Below, one piece after another: positions 1 through 8,394 of a stretch of 64,000 nt of DNA. The stretch covers positions 1,302,001 through 1,366,000 of the forward strand of contig NZ_JAUSYH010000001.1 in the NCBI RefSeq assembly GCF_030816715.1, read 5' to 3'. Position 1 is the first letter of the stretch; every line of letters begins with the position of its first letter. A program made the translations under genes and the position numbers. The notes beneath the pieces were generated by a model. That model had not been told where the DNA came from. It was given only the letters and a program-made list of their open reading frames with translations, and searched no databases. This stretch comes from Streptomyces achromogenes. GTDB lineage: Bacteria > Actinomycetota > Actinomycetes > Streptomycetales > Streptomycetaceae.

Positions 1-3000
1 CTGCGCACCGGCGAGAGCGACACGGCGATCGCCGCCGGGGTCAACCTGCTCCTGTCACCCGTCGTCGGCGTGGCGTTCGGCCAGGCGGGCGCCCTCGCGC
101 CGGACGGGCGCTGCAAGCCGTTCTCCGCGGCGGCCGACGGCATCGGCCGGGGCGAGGGCTGCGCGGCCGTGCTCCTGAAGCGGCTCTCCGACGCCGAGCG
201 GGACGGCGACCGCGTCCTCGCCGTCGTGCGGGCCACCGCCGTCAACTCCGACGGCCGCTCCAACGGGCTGCTGGCCCCCAACCCCGCAGCGCAGCAAGCC
301 CTGTTGACGACCGCGTACGGGCGGGCCGGGCTGGTCGCCGCGCACGTCGACTACGTCGAGGCGCACGGCACGGGCACCCCGCTCGGCGACCCGATCGAGG
401 CCGGCGCGCTGGACGCGGTGCTGGGAGCGGGCCGCGACCCCGAACAGCCGCTGCTGCTCGGCTCGGTCAAGGGAAACCTCGGCCATCTGGAGGCCGCGGC
501 GGGCCTCGCCGGGCTGGTGAAGACGGTTCTCGCGCTGCACCACGACCTGATCCCGCCCTCCCTGCACTGCACGCGCGGAAGCGCCGTGGGCGAGGCGCGG
601 CTGCGGGTGGTGACCGAGCCCGAGCCGTGGCCCCGCTACGGCGGCACGGCCACCGCCGGCGTGTCGGGTTTCGGCTTCAGCGGCGCCAACGCCCACGCGG
701 TGCTGGAGGAATGGCGGCCCGACGTCCTCCCGCCGCCGGTCGAGGAGCCGGTCGCCCGGCTGCATCTGCTGTCCGACGTCGACGCCGAGCGGGTCCGGGA
801 CACCGCCGGCCGGCTGGCCGCGTGGCTCCGCACGCCCGAGGGGAGGGCGGCCCGCCCGGCCGACGTGGCGCGGACGCTCGCCGGACGCACCGGCCGCGGT
901 CCCGTGCGCGCCGCCGTGGTCGCCCACGACGGCGACGAACTGGCCGACTCCATGGGCGCGTTGGCGCAGGGCCGCCCGCATCCGTGCGCGGTGACCGGTG
1001 ACCGTGATCTCGTCGGGCGCGGCCCGGTGTGGGTGTTCTCCGGATACGGCAGCCAGTGGCCGGGCATGGGACGCCGGCTGCTGGCCGAGGAACCGGTGTT
1101 CGCCGCCGCCGTGGAGAAACTCGACGCGCAGCTCGCCGGGGAATGCGGGTTCTCCCTGCACGACCGGCTGACCTCCGAAGACCCCCTGGACTGCCTGGAG
1201 ATCGCGCAGCCCGTGCTGTTCGGGGTGCAGGTGGCGCTCGCCGAGACGTGGCGCGCGTACGGGGTGGAACCGGCCGCGGTGATCGGCCACTCGATGGGCG
1301 AGGTGGCCGCCGCCGTCTGTGCGGGCGCGCTGGAAGTGCCGGAGGCCGCCCGGGTCATCGCCGTACGCGCCCGTCTGCTGGGCGGGCTGCGGGGCGGCGC
1401 GATGGCCGTGGTCGAGGTGGACGACGCCGAACTCGCCGCCCTTCAGAGGGACTTCCCCGGCGTTCAGGTCGCCGTCCACTCCTCGCCCGGGCAGAAGGTG
1501 GTCACCGGGGAGGGGTCGGCGGTCGCGGGGCTCGTGCGCCGGCTCGAGGAGGAGGGACGCGCCGCGCGGGTGATGCGGGTGGCCGGCGCCGGGCACTCGT
1601 CCCAGGTCGATCCGCTGCTGCCGGAGCTGACCGCGGCCCTGGCCGAGGTCCGGGGGCGGCGTCCGCAGGTGCCGGTGTACTCCACCGTCCTCGACGACCC
1701 GCGCGGTGACTGCGCGTTCGACGCCGCCCACTGGGCCGCCAACCTGCGTCGGCCGGTGCGTCTGGACCGGGCCGTCGCTGCGGCGGCGGCCGACGGCCAC
1801 ACCGTGTTCGTGGAGATCTCGCCGCATCCGGTCCTGGCGGGGCCGATCGCCGACACCGTGCCCGGCGCGCTCGCGGTGGGCTCCCTGCGTCGCGACGCGG
1901 ACGGCGGCGCCGCGTTCCTCACGCAGGTGGGCGCCCTGTACGCGGCGGGGCTGCCCCTGCCGCCGCCGGCGGGCCGCGTCGTCGACGTGCCCGCACCGCG
2001 CTGGCGGCACACCCGGCACTGGTGGACGGACGGCCGGCCCCGCGCCCCGCGTCCCGCGGCGAGCCGCCCGGCCGGGCACCCCGGACCGGCTCACGGCCCC
2101 ACGGCCGTCGCCGCTCCCGTCACGTGGGCCGACCCTGCGGCGCGGGTTCCCGCCCTTGCCACTGCCTCTGCCCAGGAGGCCGAACCGGCCGGGCACGCGG
2201 ACACCGTCGGGGAGGCGGCACCCGTCGCGGAGGCCGGCGGCGCCGCATCGGTCGCCACCCGTCTCGGCCGTCACATCGCGGACGTCACGGGTCACCCGGC
2301 GGCCCGGATCACGCCCTCCACCGCGCTGGCCGACCTCGGTCTGGACTCGCTGATGGCGGTCCGCATCCGCACCGCCGTGGAGCGCGAGTTCGCCGTCGCA
2401 CTGCCGCTGCGCGACCTGCTCGGCGCCGCCACGGTCGCCGAAGCGGCCGAACGCATCCGGCGGGCCCTGCCCACCCCGGAGGACGGCCCGGACGGCCCCT
2501 CACCGCAGCGCCTCCTGCGCCCCTTGCGCCCCGGCGGCGCGCGCCCGCCGCTGTTCCTCTTCCACGCGGCCGGGGGCGCCCCCGACGTCTACCGCACCCT
2601 CGCCGAACGGCTGGGGGACGTCCGCCCCGTGCTGGGCGTGGAACGGCTGGAGGAGGCCGGCACCGTGCCGGAGAAGGCGCGCCGCTACGCCGAGGCGATC
2701 GACGCAGCCCACCCCGCCGGGCCCCTGCTGCTGGGTGGCTGGTCGTTCGGCGGCTTCCTGGCGCAGGAGACGGCACGGCTGCTCACGGACGCCGGGCGGG
2801 CCGTACCGCTGGTCGTGCTCATCGACTCGGTGCGCCCGCTGCTCCCCCGGCCCGGTCCGGCTCGGGCCGACCGCGTCCGCGCGCACTTCGAGGGGTTCGC
2901 CCGGCACGTCGCGGACGTGTACGGGGTCCGTCTTCGGCTGCCCTACGACGAGCTCGCGGCGACGGACGACGACCGCGAGCGCATCGACCTCGTCCTGCGG

Positions 3001-3336
3001 GCCCTGCGCGCCGCAGCGGACGTGCCGTCCGCCGCGCTGGAGCACCAGCGGGCCTCCTACCTGGATCTGAGGATCGGCGAGGCCCACCGCCCGAGCCGTT
3101 ATGACGGTCGTGTGGTGCTGTACCGGGCGACCGAGCCGGCTCCGCACACCGTGCGCGACCCGGCCTACGAACGCGACGACGAGCACCTCGGCTGGGACGC
3201 CGTGTGCCCGGATCTGACAGTGGTGCCGGTCCCGGGGCACCACCTGTCACTGCTCGACCCCCCGCACGTCGACGAGATCGCCGCCCACCTGCGGCAGTCG
3301 CTCGCCGCGCCGGGCGGAACCGCCGAACCGCACTGA
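1..3336 (+). CDS. Type I polyketide synthase, 3' part (KS-AT-ACP-TE), Pks13-like thioesterase
   Basis: The gene is open from base 1, so its 5' end, including the KS active-site Cys, lies outside the window. Numbering from the first codon, the C-terminal KS half covers about 1-240, with the catalytic histidines in EAHGTGT (His122) and KGNLGH (His162). An acyltransferase follows at about 345-640 (GHSMGE, Ser431), then an ACP (LGLDSL, Ser783 as phosphopantetheine site) and a thioesterase at about 845-1105 (GGWSFGG, Ser915; GHH near 1080). There are no reductive domains. The TE carries stretches such as EHQRASYLD, YDGRVVLYR and VLIDSVR that match what I recall of the Pks13 TE, which releases alpha-alkyl beta-keto acids. 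The AT has GAGH where HAFH or YASH is usual, so extender choice is unclear. The next gene starts 9 nt downstream, suggesting an operon. PKS identity is certain; a Pks13-like function is inference. Confidence 0.9.
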   Translation: MRTGESDTAIAAGVNLLLSPVVGVAFGQAGALAPDGRCKPFSAAADGIGRGEGCAAVLLKRLSDAERDGDRVLAVVRATAVNSDGRSNGLLAPNPAAQQALLTTAYGRAGLVAAHVDYVEAHGTGTPLGDPIEAGALDAVLGAGRDPEQPLLLGSVKGNLGHLEAAAGLAGLVKTVLALHHDLIPPSLHCTRGSAVGEARLRVVTEPEPWPRYGGTATAGVSGFGFSGANAHAVLEEWRPDVLPPPVEEPVARLHLLSDVDAERVRDTAGRLAAWLRTPEGRAARPADVARTLAGRTGRGPVRAAVVAHDGDELADSMGALAQGRPHPCAVTGDRDLVGRGPVWVFSGYGSQWPGMGRRLLAEEPVFAAAVEKLDAQLAGECGFSLHDRLTSEDPLDCLEIAQPVLFGVQVALAETWRAYGVEPAAVIGHSMGEVAAAVCAGALEVPEAARVIAVRARLLGGLRGGAMAVVEVDDAELAALQRDFPGVQVAVHSSPGQKVVTGEGSAVAGLVRRLEEEGRAARVMRVAGAGHSSQVDPLLPELTAALAEVRGRRPQVPVYSTVLDDPRGDCAFDAAHWAANLRRPVRLDRAVAAAAADGHTVFVEISPHPVLAGPIADTVPGALAVGSLRRDADGGAAFLTQVGALYAAGLPLPPPAGRVVDVPAPRWRHTRHWWTDGRPRAPRPAASRPAGHPGPAHGPTAVAAPVTWADPAARVPALATASAQEAEPAGHADTVGEAAPVAEAGGAASVATRLGRHIADVTGHPAARITPSTALADLGLDSLMAVRIRTAVEREFAVALPLRDLLGAATVAEAAERIRRALPTPEDGPDGPSPQRLLRPLRPGGARPPLFLFHAAGGAPDVYRTLAERLGDVRPVLGVERLEEAGTVPEKARRYAEAIDAAHPAGPLLLGGWSFGGFLAQETARLLTDAGRAVPLVVLIDSVRPLLPRPGPARADRVRAHFEGFARHVADVYGVRLRLPYDELAATDDDRERIDLVLRALRAAADVPSAALEHQRASYLDLRIGEAHRPSRYDGRVVLYRATEPAPHTVRDPAYERDDEHLGWDAVCPDLTVVPVPGHHLSLLDPPHVDEIAAHLRQSLAAPGGTAEPH

Positions 3337-3345
3337 GGAGCCGCC

Positions 3346-4323
3346 ATGCCGCACCGCACCGCCGCAACGTCCCGACGCGCCGTCACCAAAGCCGCCGCGG
3401 CCACAGGGCTGGCCGCCCTGTTCGGTGCCCGCGCCACCACGACGGCCGGCGCCACCACGACAGACCGGGCCACGGCGACGGCCCGGACCGCGACCCGGCT
3501 GGGACCGCGCACCGTCGACGTCTCCGTCGCCTCCCCCGCGCTGGGCCGCCGCGCGCCGTTGCGGCTGATCCTGCCCACCGGCTTCGACGCCCGGCCCGAG
3601 CGGACCTACCCCGTGCTGTATCTGCTGCACGGCGCCCACGACGACCACACGTCCTGGACCCGGGAGACCGACATCGAGGCCTTCACCGAGGGCCGCGACC
3701 TGATCGTGGCCATGCCCGACGCCGGCCCCACCGGCATCCCGTCCGCGTGGCGCGGCGGCCCCGACTACGAGACCTTCCAGGTGCGGGAGGTCCCGGCGCT
3801 CCTCGCCCGCGACTACCGGGCCTCCGGGGTGCGGGCCGTCGCCGGGGTCTCCACCGGCGGCTACGGGGCGATGGCGCACGCCGCCCGGCACCCGGGCACG
3901 TTCGCCGCCGCGGCCTCCTACAGCGGCATCCTCGACACCACCGCCCCCGGGGTGCCGCCCCTCGTGGACGCCATCGTGGCCCGCGAGAACCTGCTCCCCC
4001 CGTCGCTGTGGGGCAACCCGATCCTCAACGCCCCGACCTGGCGCGACTTCAATCCGCGGGCCCGCGCGGCCGGACTGCGGGGCACTCCCCTGTACGTGTC
4101 GAGCGGCAGCGGGGTGGTCGGCGGCGCCGGCGACTGGCTGCCGGAGGCGCTGGAGAGCGCGCTGTGGCCCTCGGCGCACGGTTTCACCGGCGCGCTGGCG
4201 CTCCTCGGCGTCGCGGTCACCACCCACTTCTACACGGGAGGAGGACACAGCTGGACCTACTGGCGACGGGAGTTCACCGCCTCCTGGCCGATGCTCGCCC
4301 GTGCGCTGGGGGTGCCGGAATGA
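3346..4323 (+). CDS. Secreted antigen-85/esterase-D family acyltransferase or esterase
   Basis: This is a 325-residue alpha/beta hydrolase. The N-terminus has a twin-arginine pattern (SRRAVTK) followed by a hydrophobic Ala-rich stretch, so Tat export is likely. The core shows YLLHGAHDDHTSW, the nucleophile elbow GVSTGGYGAM (Ser169) and GGGHSWTYW (His301). The G-HSW-YW signature is typical of the esterase family that includes mycobacterial antigen 85 mycolyltransferases. The ATG is preceded by GAGGAG and lies 9 nt after the PKS stop, so the two genes are probably cotranscribed. That position suggests the protein transfers or hydrolyses the PKS product at the cell surface. Many streptomycete esterases share this fold, so transferase activity is not proven. 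Confidence 0.8.
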   Translation: MPHRTAATSRRAVTKAAAATGLAALFGARATTTAGATTTDRATATARTATRLGPRTVDVSVASPALGRRAPLRLILPTGFDARPERTYPVLYLLHGAHDDHTSWTRETDIEAFTEGRDLIVAMPDAGPTGIPSAWRGGPDYETFQVREVPALLARDYRASGVRAVAGVSTGGYGAMAHAARHPGTFAAAASYSGILDTTAPGVPPLVDAIVARENLLPPSLWGNPILNAPTWRDFNPRARAAGLRGTPLYVSSGSGVVGGAGDWLPEALESALWPSAHGFTGALALLGVAVTTHFYTGGGHSWTYWRREFTASWPMLARALGVPE

Positions 4324-4445
4324 TGTCGGTGCCGCCGGGGCACGGAACGGAGCGCAGGGGTCGCCCGTCCAACACAGGACGGCCCTCTCGTCCCACGGGC
4401 ACCGGTGCGTGGGCGAGCCGTCTCCGGGTGAAAGGAGTGTCCGTC

Positions 4446-5687
4446 GTGGCTGTCCCCGCTCCGCGCGGCGAACCCGTCGGCCCCCGAACCGCTCCGGTTC
4501 CGCCGGACCTGGCCGAGCTGCTTCGCTCCGACCTCGAAGGCGTGGCCGACGAAGTGGAGGAAGAGGTCCGCAGACAGGTCCCCGAGTACGGGGGGCCCGC
4601 CGCCGCGGTCCAGGGCCGCCACATCAGGTCCGGCGTGGTCCAGGCGCTCACCCTGTTCGTCGACCACATCGCCGACCCGCGGGGCCAGGACGCCGCTATC
4701 GCCGCGACGTACTACGAACTCGGCCGCGGTGAAGCCCTCGAGGGACGCAGCCTCGACGCGCTGCAGTCGGCGTTGCGCGTGGGCGGCCTGCACGCCTGGC
4801 GGCGGCTGAGCCGCACGGCCGAGGAGGTCGGGCTGGACTCGACGGCCGTGGCCGCCCTCGGCGAACTGGCCTTCAGGACGGTGCACGAGGTCGCGGAGGC
4901 GGCCGCCGCCGGATACGCCGAAGCCCGGTCCCGCAGCGCCGACGAGCTGGAGCGGCGTCGCCGGCGCCTGCTCGACCTCCTGCTGGGCGAGGGGCCGGTG
5001 TCCCCTGAGGCGGTGCAGGAGCTGGCGCACGCCGCACGCTGGCGGGTGCCCTCGCAGGTCGCGGTCGTCGTGCTCGCGGCAAGCGCCGACCCCAACGCAC
5101 AGGACCCGCCGCCGGCGACGCCCGGGGCGCTGGTGGACATGGGGTCACGGCCGCCGCGGGTGCTGGTCCCGGACCCGGAGGGCGCGGGCCGGTTCGGCGG
5201 CCGGGCGTTCGTCCTCGGTCTGCAGGGACGCCCGGCGGCGATCGGCCCGACGGTCCCGGTCGCCGAGGCCGCGCACTCGCTGCGCTGGGCCACCCGCGCG
5301 CTCGGGCTGATGGGCCGCGGGGTGCTGCCCCGGCAGGGCGTGGTGCGCTGCGCCGACCATCTGTCGACGCTGCTCCTGCACAGCGACGAACCGCTGCTCG
5401 GCCACCTCGCGGAGCGCACCCTCTCACCCCTGGACGCCGTCTCCGAGGGGCAGCGGGCCAGGCTTGCCGAGACGCTGCTGGCCTGGCTGCTGAGCGGCAG
5501 CAACGTGCCCGACGTGGCCGCCCGGCTGCACATCCACCCGCAGACGGTCCGCTACCGGCTGCGTCAACTGGAGAAGCTGTTCGGCGACGCCCTGCACGAC
5601 CCCGGCGCCCGGCTGGACCTGATCCTCGCCCTGCGCTCCACGGCCGCACACGGCGACACAAGGCGGACACTAACTTCGGAACAATAA
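4446..5687 (+). CDS. PucR/CdaR-type transcriptional regulator with C-terminal HTH
   Basis: The protein is 413 residues. The C-terminus (about 340-400) has the PucR-family helix-turn-helix: LLAWLLSGSNVPDVAARLHIHPQTVRYRLRQ in two consecutive blocks followed by LEKLFG. The N-terminal 150 residues are helical and resemble the RsbRD-like sensor region found in such proteins. I chose GTG at 4446 because AAAGGAG lies 8 nt upstream at 4431-4437. An ATG at 4320 overlapping the previous stop would extend the product but has no comparable site. The gene sits between the antigen-85-like gene and the cutinase on the same strand, so it may control this lipid or ester module. The ligand is unknown. Confidence 0.85.
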   Translation: MAVPAPRGEPVGPRTAPVPPDLAELLRSDLEGVADEVEEEVRRQVPEYGGPAAAVQGRHIRSGVVQALTLFVDHIADPRGQDAAIAATYYELGRGEALEGRSLDALQSALRVGGLHAWRRLSRTAEEVGLDSTAVAALGELAFRTVHEVAEAAAAGYAEARSRSADELERRRRRLLDLLLGEGPVSPEAVQELAHAARWRVPSQVAVVVLAASADPNAQDPPPATPGALVDMGSRPPRVLVPDPEGAGRFGGRAFVLGLQGRPAAIGPTVPVAEAAHSLRWATRALGLMGRGVLPRQGVVRCADHLSTLLLHSDEPLLGHLAERTLSPLDAVSEGQRARLAETLLAWLLSGSNVPDVAARLHIHPQTVRYRLRQLEKLFGDALHDPGARLDLILALRSTAAHGDTRRTLTSEQ

Positions 5688-5798
5688 AACGCGGGATTTC
5701 TGAATTCCCGTCCATAACACCTGCCCGGGAAACGCGAATACCTTCGGGACTGTCCTTTTCCGTAGGCGCACAACGCGCCGCACCCCCAAAGGATCCCC

Positions 5799-6440
5799 AT
5801 GCGTATTCGCCTGTGCCTCGCCGCGCTCTCCCTCGTCGGCGGGGTCGGACTGACCGCCCTCTCGGCACCCGCGGCATCCGCCGCCGCCTGCTCGGACATC
5901 GACGTCGTGGCAGCTCGCGGCACCTTCGAGCCGGGCACGCTCGGCCTGATCGTCGGCGACCCGGTGTATTCCGCCCTGCAGAGGAAACTGACGGGAAAGA
6001 AACTCTCCAGCTATGCGGTGAACTATCCCGCCGACCTTTCCCTGACGTCCGCCGCGCAGGGAAACGCCGATCTCGTGAACCACGTCAAGGCGCAGGCCGC
6101 AGCCTGTCCCGCCCAGCGTTTCCTGCTCGTCGGATATTCGCAGGGCGCGAACGTCGTCGACAACTCCCTCGGCATCAGCAGCGCCGGCGCGGTGGTGGGC
6201 AGCCCCATCGTGGCGACCCTCCCCGCGGCCGTCGAGCCGAAGGTCGCCGCGGTCCTGCTGTTCGGCAACCCGATCCGGGCGCTCGGCAAGAGCGTCACCG
6301 GCGTCTACCAGAGCCGCACCATCGACTTCTGCGCCGACGGCGACCCCATCTGCGAGAACGGCGGGGACGACGTGCTGGCGCACCTCGGCTACACCTCCGA
6401 CGCCGGCGCGGCGGCCACGTTCGCCGCGAGCAGGGTCTGA
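5799..6440 (+). CDS. Secreted cutinase-family esterase
   Basis: The product has 213 residues with a clear Sec signal peptide (MRIRLCLAALSLVGGVGLTA, cleavage near ASAAAC). The mature part begins with the cutinase-typical CSDIDVVAARGTFEPG. It has the nucleophile elbow GYSQG (Ser114) and a late DGDPIC then HLGY, which supply Asp and His of the triad. Cutinase-family enzymes hydrolyse cutin, polyesters or triglycerides; in mycobacteria one member (Rv3802c) lies next to pks13 and the antigen 85 genes. AAAGGA lies about 8 nt before the ATG. A strong hairpin terminator follows at 6512-6545. Family assignment is secure; the substrate is not. Confidence 0.9.
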   Translation: MRIRLCLAALSLVGGVGLTALSAPAASAAACSDIDVVAARGTFEPGTLGLIVGDPVYSALQRKLTGKKLSSYAVNYPADLSLTSAAQGNADLVNHVKAQAAACPAQRFLLVGYSQGANVVDNSLGISSAGAVVGSPIVATLPAAVEPKVAAVLLFGNPIRALGKSVTGVYQSRTIDFCADGDPICENGGDDVLAHLGYTSDAGAAATFAASRV

Positions 6441-6618: not shown

Positions 6619-8394
6619 TTATCGCGGAGCGCGGGCGAACGCGGCGAGGCCGGCGGACACCGGCTCGGGCCGGCCGTCGTTCTGCACCGGGGCCGCGGTC
6701 AGCACGTCGAGATGCTGGTAGCCGGCCGCCACCACGGGATGCAGGTCGGCCGGGATGCGGCCGGCGAGCAGTCCGTCGCCCGCGAGCACCGTGAGCGTCG
6801 GGTTGGCCGTCAGCCCGCCGGGATGGACGACGAGCCTCTTCACCTGAGGCGACGTGCCCAACTGGATGTCGGTGAGGAGCTTGGTGGGGAAGTACTGCTC
6901 GGTGAAGTCCAGCGGCTGCTCCGCCAGACTGCGGGCCAGTTCCCGGATGTCGGTGACCTCCTTGCCGGCCGTGGTGAACGGCGTGCCGTCGGCCGACCGG
7001 TACCCGGGGTCGTCGGCGTCACCGACGCGGTCGTAGTTCCGCCAGGTGTACAGCGGCCCGTGGGGTTGCCCGGGGATGGCCTTGTACTCGACGCCGAACA
7101 ACTGCGTCGGCTGCGCACTGCCGTTGGCGGCGGGGAAGTCCTTGTCCACGACCGGCCCGCCGTCGAAGAAGCCCACACTGCTCTGCAGAAACGCCAGCGG
7201 TACGGACTGGTCGTCCATCAGCGCCCCGAGCACGGCGGCGTTGGTGAGCCGGAAGTCCTTCACCGCGGGTGAGCCGGTGAGGAAGGCCGCGGCGTCCTTC
7301 GAGAACAGGAACCGGTTGGTGGCCTCGATGTTGAGGCCGGAGGGCAGGTAGGCGGGCAGGTCCGCCTCGGCGTCCGGGTCGTGCACGGCTCCGAGGCCGG
7401 CGATGGCGAGCAAAGTCATGGTCTCCGGGTTGAGCAGGACCGGCGCGGACAGTGAGCGCGGGAGCGCCCCGGTGTCGAGCCCCGCCTGCACCGCCGCGTA
7501 GCCGAGCCCGATGTCCGGCAGGCCGGTGTCGTCGGGGATGCTGCCGCTCAGGTCGTCCAGGGAGGTGGAGACCGTCGTGTCCAGGGCGAAGTAGCCGGCG
7601 CACTGGTTCTGCCCGGCGTCCGCCGTGGTGGCGGGGTTGCCGTCGAAGTCGGCGGCGGCGAAGTACCCGGTGATCACGCCGCCCAGCGAGTGCCCGCCGC
7701 ACAGCAGCCTGCTCCTGCGCAGGCCGGGATCGGGCAACTCGGCGACGAGCAGGTCGTACTGGTCCCGCACGGTCTGCTCGATGCCGAGCTTCGCCAGCCA
7801 CCCGAGCCGGCCGTTGCCGGCGAACCCGTCGAAGGTGCGGCCGCCGACCGGCCGGCCGCGGTAGTAGTAGTCGACGGCCGCGTGCTGGTCGCCGGAGGCG
7901 ATGCCGGTGCGGTCCTCCAGGCAGTTGGAGCGCCTGTCCAGCGCCCAGAACTCGATGTGCCGCCCTTGGGCCGCGGCCTTGGCGACGGTGCCGCGGGCGA
8001 CGCTGTCGAAAGCTCCCGCGCCCTCCAGGATGCCCGGCTGGGCCACGAGGATCCGGTCGGCGTCGGCGGACGCGGCCGGCCCCTCCGCGGAGCGGTAGCG
8101 CAGATACGACAGCCAGTCGCACGCCGCCGGACGGCTGCCGAACGCCGACGGCAACGGCGCCTTCACCCGCACCACCGACTCGGTCACCCCGTCGGCCGGA
8201 TGCGTCGACGCCACGGGCGTCTCGGTGCGCGTGCCGGCTCCCTGGGCGGTCGGGACGGCTCCGGTGAGGGCCCCGGCGGTCAGCAGCGCCGCCAGCGCGG
8301 CGCCGCGCCATGTCCTTCCTCTGCCGGAACTCGTCTTCACGGTCTTCAGCGACGTCATGGACGTCATGGGCTTCAGGGACGTCATGGACTTCAT
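6619..8394 (-). CDS. Large secreted alpha/beta hydrolase (esterase/lipase-like)
   Basis: The product is 591 residues. The N-terminus begins with a repetitive MKSMTSLKPMTSMTSLK segment and then a hydrophobic signal (AALAALLTAGALTGAV). The nucleophile elbow is GGHSLGG near residue 228. The rest resembles actinobacterial secreted hydrolases of unknown substrate. Several in-frame ATGs fall in the repeated leader and none has a good ribosome site, so the start is uncertain. The gene is convergent with the cutinase gene. It may belong with the neighbouring ester/lipid genes, but nothing in the sequence proves this. Confidence 0.7.
   Translation of the reverse strand: MKSMTSLKPMTSMTSLKTVKTSSGRGRTWRGAALAALLTAGALTGAVPTAQGAGTRTETPVASTHPADGVTESVVRVKAPLPSAFGSRPAACDWLSYLRYRSAEGPAASADADRILVAQPGILEGAGAFDSVARGTVAKAAAQGRHIEFWALDRRSNCLEDRTGIASGDQHAAVDYYYRGRPVGGRTFDGFAGNGRLGWLAKLGIEQTVRDQYDLLVAELPDPGLRRSRLLCGGHSLGGVITGYFAAADFDGNPATTADAGQNQCAGYFALDTTVSTSLDDLSGSIPDDTGLPDIGLGYAAVQAGLDTGALPRSLSAPVLLNPETMTLLAIAGLGAVHDPDAEADLPAYLPSGLNIEATNRFLFSKDAAAFLTGSPAVKDFRLTNAAVLGALMDDQSVPLAFLQSSVGFFDGGPVVDKDFPAANGSAQPTQLFGVEYKAIPGQPHGPLYTWRNYDRVGDADDPGYRSADGTPFTTAGKEVTDIRELARSLAEQPLDFTEQYFPTKLLTDIQLGTSPQVKRLVVHPGGLTANPTLTVLAGDGLLAGRIPADLHPVVAAGYQHLDVLTAAPVQNDGRPEPVSAGLAAFARAPR
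8337..8394. repeat. GACGTCATGG-type microrepeat encoding the hydrolase leader
   Basis: Four imperfect copies of a GACGTCATGG-like unit encode the MTSLK/MTSM leader of the minus-strand hydrolase. They provide four in-frame ATG codons. Repeat slippage here would change the length of the signal-peptide n-region without breaking the frame only when the change is a multiple of three. Confidence 0.6.

Follow-up and report, generated by a model that had tools for sequence, protein, structure and literature searches.

Gene content of the locus

The window analysed here is a 64,000-nucleotide stretch of the complete 9.17-Mb genome of Streptomyces achromogenes (G000:C1:1302001-1366000). It opens inside the gene of a polyketide synthase (PKS) of the Pks13 type and encodes the C-terminal 1,111 of its 1,414 residues. 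The genes upstream were read in a longer record, L009, in which a window position corresponds to the L009 position minus 12000 (Table 1). The original prediction, made from the window sequence alone, had described a synthase with ketosynthase (KS), acyltransferase (AT), acyl carrier protein (ACP) and thioesterase (TE) domains and without reductive domains. A Pfam scan of window positions 1 to 3336 bore this out, and the part of the gene outside the window adds a further ACP at the N-terminus, before the KS. The complete order, ACP-KS-AT-ACP-TE, is the same as that of Pks13, and no reductive domain was found by Pfam anywhere in the synthase.

The neighbouring genes were likewise found as described. 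An antigen-85-like protein with a twin-arginine translocation (Tat)-type N-terminus begins 9 nt after the synthase stop codon, and a PucR-family regulator and a cutinase follow in that order. Upstream, where a FadD32-like ligase and an AccD4-like subunit had been expected (AccD4 being, as we take it, the name of the mycolata carboxylase beta subunit adjoining pks13), lie genes for a fatty acyl-AMP ligase (FAAL) and for an AccD. One strand carries AccD, FAAL, synthase and antigen-85-like genes in that order, and the FAAL and synthase genes overlap by 4 nt. The prediction had set further PKS modules upstream against its own reading; in the 29 kb examined on the upstream side none came to light, and AccD and FAAL stand there instead. 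A scan for sigma-70 promoters gave 0 sites.

Table 1. Positions of the genes and domains of the locus (window positions unless a record is named)
Feature	Position	Strand	Length	Remarks
AccD gene	G000:C1:1297735-1299303 (L009 7735-9303), upstream of window		522 aa	
FAAL gene	G000:C1:1299350-1301095 (L009 9350-11095), upstream of window		581 aa	
Pks13-type synthase, whole gene	G000:C1:1301092-1305336 (L009 11092-15336)		1,414 aa	
Synthase, part in window	1..3336	+		Rest of KS, AT, C-terminal ACP, TE
Synthase AT domain	1027..1941	+		Nucleophile S734, R759, GAGH site
Synthase C-terminal ACP	2266..2457	+		GLDSL serine S1086
Synthase TE domain	2548..3297	+		S1218/D1245/H1383, lid block EHQRASYLD
Antigen-85/mycoloyltransferase-like protein, Tat-type N-terminus	3346..4323	+		PF00756; S169/E270/H301
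PucR-family regulator	4446..5687	+		PF13556
Secreted-type cutinase, counterpart of S. scabiei Sub1	5799..6440	+		PF01083, 139 bits; 82% identity to Sub1
Hydrolase-like protein, convergent to cutinase	6619..8394	-	591 aa	GGHSLGG nucleophile-type motif, signal-like N-terminus
P450-like gene just upstream of AccD, opposite strand	L009 6028-7623	-		Pfam 33 bits

Relationships of the core enzymes

The catalytic residues of the synthase were judged by alignment with four Pks13 proteins of mycolata, a label that for part of the rows rests on Pks13-model matches over the cut-off and on gene order, and with two relatives. All five domains keep the Pks13 catalytic residues (KS C290/H425/H465 and ACP S57 and S1086, besides the AT and TE residues given in Table 1). 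The N-terminal ACP, of which we take S57 to be the carrier serine, has the xSSRDAV motif that it shares with Pks13. R759 lies 25 residues past the AT serine, a spacing that we take to be that of the carboxylate-binding arginine of Pks13, and it presumably plays the same role. At the AT specificity site the synthase has GAGH, as does one of three mycolata Pks13 proteins; the other two have GASH, some relatives have TAGH, AAGH or GGAH, and two modular ATs of the same genome have HAFH. If such motifs mean what we assume, GAGH is consistent with an alkylmalonyl extender. The sequence blocks of the TE that had been held to be shared with Pks13 have counterparts at the aligned places of the Williamsia Pks13 TE, which reads EHQRTSFLD, FDGTVVLYR and ALIDAVR.

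In a search of PDB sequences, Pks13 was the best match of the synthase (817 bits), ahead of mycocerosic acid synthase (649). In a KS-AT tree of 38 rows, nine Pks13 proteins, five synthases of Streptomyces loci and five relatives formed one clade (support 100/99), apart from the modular PKSs of the genome itself. Inside this clade Pks13 formed a group of its own (100/100), sister to the rest (98/97), with the Streptomyces synthases outside it. The joint clade excluded four modular KS-ATs of this genome as well as three further modular rows. An earlier quick tree agrees. The outgroup sampling of the 38-row tree and of the 20-row FAAL tree is modest, neither MAS nor Pps nor Pks2 being represented.

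These trees bear on the idea that the synthase is a macrolide-type PKS module of the ordinary kind whose neighbours are unrelated to it. Its KS and AT are generic PKS domains, and its KS-AT is just 39-44% identical to those of two mycolata Pks13 proteins; some PKSs on Streptomyces plasmids reach 47-49%. However, the KS-AT, AccD and FAAL trees, the SSRDAV motif of the N-terminal ACP, the conserved neighbours and the absence of upstream PKS modules all speak against it. We rejected this very improbable reading because the upstream genes are AccD and FAAL and the KS-AT lies outside the modular rows of the tree. The plasmid synthases of L093, L094 and L095, whose KS-AT is 48-49% identical to that of the window synthase, each follow a stand-alone KS-like gene and a DUF5988 gene; in the tree, those of L093 and L094 belong to a sister group of the clade formed by Pks13 and the Streptomyces synthases.

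The partner enzymes gave a similar picture. AccD grouped with the pks13-linked carboxylase beta subunit of mycolata and with the AccD of locus L139 (94/92), one paralog of the same genome coming next (93/97). FAAL grouped with mycolata FadD32 (100/99) in a tree that held only four other FAAL rows.

The antigen-85-like protein (PF00756, 99 bits) has the twin-arginine sequence SRRAVTK at its N-terminus, and its best PDB sequence relative is PS1 of 6sx4, C. glutamicum mycoloyltransferase A (E value, 1.5e-35). Its predicted model (predicted local distance difference test [pLDDT], 71.6; predicted TM score [pTM], 0.75) was compared with the PDB by Foldseek. Ranks 1 to 25 were all members of the mycoloyltransferase/antigen 85 family, MPT51 antigen included, and the first plain esterase appeared at rank 26. 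Residues S169, E270 and H301, which we take to form a Ser-Glu-His triad, were invariant in 20 aligned sequences, two mycolata ones among them. The model thus has the mycoloyltransferase fold together with the triad. Five other PF00756 matches occur in the genome, all of them weaker.

Compared with the mycolate locus of Mycobacteriales, whose genes are antigen-85-type genes, a cutinase, fadD32, pks13 and a carboxylase beta subunit (as in R. ruber, L092), the Streptomyces block has next to one another the same four core enzyme kinds, by which mycobacteria join two fatty acids to mycolic acid and link it to sugars, the same synthase domain order and catalytic residues, a sister phylogenetic position and a cutinase nearby. 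It differs in gene order, AccD being first and the antigen-85-like gene last, in the presence of the PucR regulator, and in being patchy rather than general in its genus. The cutinase is only 24-28% identical to those of two mycolate loci, and no Emb match was found in the genome. The synthase, without a DH-like insert, is also shorter than the 120 Pks13 relatives among the matches listed (1,639-1,848 residues). In Pks13 a dehydratase-like segment (DH*) presumably lies between the AT and the C-terminal ACP; in the Streptomyces synthase about 110 residues stand there, without a dehydratase (DH) match by Pfam. That Pks13 has such a segment is stated in the available part of PMC11649247. The R. 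ruber locus is annotated, together with two arabinosyltransferase genes, on a 74-kb linear plasmid record (pmega_4).

Distribution, sister loci and the extender unit

When genome contigs were scanned with an alignment of 16 rows, 116 relatives were confirmed, and the figures for loci are from the best 80 of them: 78 of Streptomyces type, one from Williamsia and one from an Ignavibacteriae metagenome-assembled genome (MAG). By their titles, 77 of the 78 are from Streptomyces and one is from an "Actinobacteria bacterium". All six genes, from AccD to the cutinase, were matched in 65 of the 78 loci and were strictly collinear on one strand in 63. The two exceptions were L075, in which 2,735 bases are masked or unknown, and L079, where the best frames overlap, and the 13 loci without some of the genes lacked them only where the contig ends. 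The median identity to the window proteins across the 78 loci was 86% for AccD, 85% for the cutinase, 80% for the antigen-85-like protein, 78% for PucR, 77% for FAAL and 73% for the synthase.

The antigen-85-like protein was used as a proxy for the locus in broader samples. Of 199 evenly sampled genomes of the genus, this one among them, 21 had it at no less than 79% identity, 6 at 54-59% and 2 at only 41-44%. Among 197 genomes of the class, an E value of 1e-40 was reached in 14, across 7 of 90 genera. The locus is therefore old, conserved and patchy in its spread rather than peculiar to one strain. In a search of the class sample with the Pks13 model, which scored no more than 2 candidates per genome and so missed the window's own locus, 14 of the 197 genomes were over the cut-off, a tally that does not count window-type loci. 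On the contig of the Ignavibacteriae MAG (L086), an open frame has FAAL-like and KS-AT-like parts.

Reading around more distant antigen-85-like or Pks13-like matches gave 15 sister loci, which we divide into types B, C and D, type A being the window type; their gene presence was scored by blastp at an E value of 1e-20. Type B (L153-L158, from six genomes of the genus) has FAAL, synthase and a major facilitator superfamily (MFS) transporter in all six and a crotonyl-CoA carboxylase/reductase (CCR) in five, that of L153 matching TIGR01751 with 538 bits (cut-off, 379); the three type B synthases scanned have neither a ketoreductase (KR) nor a DH. Type C (L159-L162 from the genus, Nonomuraea L091, and L138) has a glycosyltransferase in all six and a CCR in four, L159 being a shorter stretch than the others. 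The four type C synthases scanned have a KR, with DH_N over the cut-off in L138, L160 and L162 and not in L091. At the same threshold, FAAL went unmatched in L091 and L138. In L161 (G299) a second antigen-85-like gene lies beside the glycosyltransferase, with synthase and FAAL not matched in the 20-kb stretch. In type D (L136, L137 and L139, from another family), all three loci have KR and DH, and L139 has an AccD.

Most of the sister loci thus share with the window FAAL, an ACP-KS-AT-(DH)(KR)-ACP-TE synthase and an antigen-85-like transferase, and differ from it in the MFS transporter, the KR and DH domains or the glycosyltransferase, depending on type. They differ also in the carboxylating enzyme, CCR replacing AccD in 9 of the 15, with AccD in one. 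No description of type B, C or D loci was found in the open-access literature subset.

AccD and CCR both yield an alpha-carboxylated acyl-CoA. AccD was present in 76 of the 79 type A loci (own included) and CCR in none; across the 94 non-mycolata loci (79 type A and 15 sister loci), AccD occurred in 77 and CCR in 9, and the two never occurred together. This exchange, never with both, suggests that the AT probably takes an alkylmalonyl extender. It offers a direct handle on the extender unit and is the best sequence evidence pointing to alkylmalonyl-CoA.

Proposed product and the place of the cutinase

We give a probability of roughly 0.6 to the reading of the locus as a lipid cassette of the Pks13 type. 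Together with biotin-carboxylase subunits encoded elsewhere, AccD would carboxylate a fatty acyl-CoA to alkylmalonyl-CoA, and FAAL would adenylate a second fatty acid and load it on the N-terminal ACP of the synthase. The AT would load the carboxyacyl unit on S1086, and the KS would condense both acyl units to an alpha-alkyl-beta-keto chain. The TE would likely release the chain onto a sugar by analogy with Pks13, whose TE has a role in release according to the accessible text of PMC11649247, and the Tat-type antigen-85-like enzyme would re-esterify it extracellularly to another acceptor. The sequence itself shows which genes are present and how they are ordered and spaced, the domain order and catalytic residues of the enzymes, their phylogenetic placement, the conservation of the set across 78 loci and the AccD/CCR exchange; we infer which substrates are used, that they are condensed, that the acceptor is trehalose or some other sugar and that the product is exported. 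Since the synthase has no KR, the beta-keto group would stay unless a separate reductase acts, and the most likely product is a secreted alpha-alkyl-beta-keto acyl glycolipid.

Several results weigh against the cassette reading. With the NCBIfam models, the synthase scored 1173 bits against mycolic_Pks13 (cut-off, 2100) and FAAL scored 497 against FadD32 (cut-off, 975), less than against two general FAAL models (557 and 535). In a PDB sequence search with FAAL, two chains named acyl-CoA synthase were best, followed by FadD23 and FadD32-named chains at nearly the same level (402 and 395, respectively). The TE tree has one poor outside row, and in the antigen 85 tree the group of the mycolata transferases was not settled, deep branches being unresolved and the paralogs of the genome lying on long branches. 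Five of the 15 sister loci (L136, L137, L156, L159 and L161) have neither AccD nor CCR. No KR was found in the synthase or the block, a CmrA-like reductase elsewhere in the genome not having been sought. There is also no dedicated exporter in the block, and none of the 22 places with MMPL-family matches in the genome is linked to it.

Judged from its sequence, the locus is a mycolate-condensation-like gene set and a sister of the mycolate system rather than a member of it, since its synthase lies outside the Pks13 clade, misses the cut-off of the Pks13 model and has no DH*-like segment, and since the arabinogalactan side, probed through Emb arabinosyltransferases, gave no match either.

The lack of a KR could also be taken to mean that the synthase frees an alpha-alkyl-beta-keto acid, which would decarboxylate to a long-chain ketone, the antigen-85-like protein being a plain esterase. 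The available part of PMC2568869 describes an M. smegmatis reductase mutant in which ketones of this kind build up from beta-oxo precursors, but its beta-oxo chains are still esterified to the wall. Moreover, the TE-bearing synthase and the antigen-85-type protein co-occur in each of the 65 loci that are not truncated by a contig end, and the predicted fold of the latter matches the mycoloyltransferase family ahead of esterases. We therefore regard the free acid or ketone as an unlikely product.

Hardly more probable is a cassette for a mycomembrane-like coat of spores or hyphae, an envelope layer held covalently or tightly. The closest known homologues have that role, and a mycoloyltransferase-type enzyme with a Tat-type N-terminus is present. 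However, the genome gave 0 matches for the Emb arabinosyltransferase family (PF04602), for which C. glutamicum was the only matching one of 14 control genomes; a wall anchor of the mycobacterial type is thus unlikely. The scattered occurrence in the genus (21 of 199 genomes) also counts against a layer, as do the MFS transporters and glycosyltransferases of the sister loci, which are common with specialised metabolites. Because of the missing PF04602 match and the patchy distribution, we favour a specialised glycolipid that would be secreted or loosely bound rather than a wall layer, and this is the part of the cassette reading that goes furthest beyond the sequence.

According to the available part of PMC6194230, mycolic acids occur exclusively in the order Corynebacteriales. 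The predicted product of the Streptomyces set is an exported lipid resembling mycolates; no paper on such a locus was found by title or abstract start in the open-access literature subset. Cassettes of this sister kind, in Streptomyces and in further actinomycetes, would reveal the origin of the mycolate machinery, would predict a lipid class to seek in well-known soil bacteria and would offer a tractable non-pathogenic system for mycolate-type chemistry. A broader and more tentative proposal, which we hold to be somewhat less probable than its opposite, is that mycolate-type condensation is a branch of actinomycete-wide lipid cassettes, conceived as FAAL, a double-ACP synthase, an alkylmalonyl-CoA maker and an antigen-85-type transferase. 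Streptomyces would secrete keto- or hydroxy-mycolate glycolipids, DH* would be the remnant of a DH-KR region still present in relatives, and Sub1 would tailor the lipid.

According to the available part of PMC4365757, glucolypsin, fattiviracin and cycloviracin are glycolipid dilactones from Streptomyces, Nocardia and Kibdelosporangium, and glucolypsin has 2-methyl-3-hydroxy fatty acids esterified to C6 of glucose; no gene cluster for the three appears in that part. This chemistry is what would be expected of FAAL, a KR-bearing synthase, a glycosyltransferase and an antigen-85-type transferase. The likeness concerns type C, type A having neither KR nor glycosyltransferase, and that type C loci make glucolypsin-type glycolipids is a conjecture.

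The original prediction had set the cutinase beside the cutinase-like Rv3802c of Mycobacterium. A PF01083 cutinase is indeed present, and all four mycolata loci examined have one, but it is not the counterpart of Rv3802c (Culp6), which was ruled out by its low identity to the cutinase-like proteins of mycolate loci and by a score of 24 bits with the NCBIfam Culp6 model. It more closely resembles CE5 esterases (4psc, for instance) and, from its sequence, is a Sub1-type polyester hydrolase of the CE5 type. The Sub1 cloning primers given in PMC7104285 could be placed on S. scabiei 87.22 (L041), where they coincide with the two ends of the cutinase gene in the block; one is identical, and the other differs by a single mismatch, at the stop codon. 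Sub1 is therefore the sixth gene of the block. The accessible part of that paper treats Sub1 alone, as a plant-polymer and poly(ethylene terephthalate) (PET) hydrolase that degrades suberin, cutin and PET and is induced by suberin.

These properties, and the presence of the cutinase in 68 of the 78 loci, the other 10 contigs ending before it, would suit a system for the use of plant polyesters, in which the cutinase frees cutin or suberin acids that FAAL and the synthase merely process or store. We consider this improbable. None of the 15 sister loci with antigen-85-like genes had a cutinase (E value, 1e-3) within the stretches examined, in contrast to the mycolata loci, and an exported-type mycoloyltransferase has no obvious role in plain degradation. 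The core of the lipid cassette thus does not need the cutinase, whose adjacency in type A looks like a separate acquisition. Within the cassette it would trim or recycle the lipid ester, or free plant fatty acids for FAAL, and its place in the block raises a question over the native substrate of Sub1.

Two further genes flank the block. The hydrolase-like protein convergent to the cutinase, whose family occurs in 62 of the 79 loci, is a possible accessory; it gave no Pfam match at an E value of 0.001 and no PDB sequence match at an E value of 1, and its structure prediction (pLDDT, 37.7) gave no usable fold. A relative of the P450-like gene upstream of AccD lies near the block in 9 of the 79 loci.

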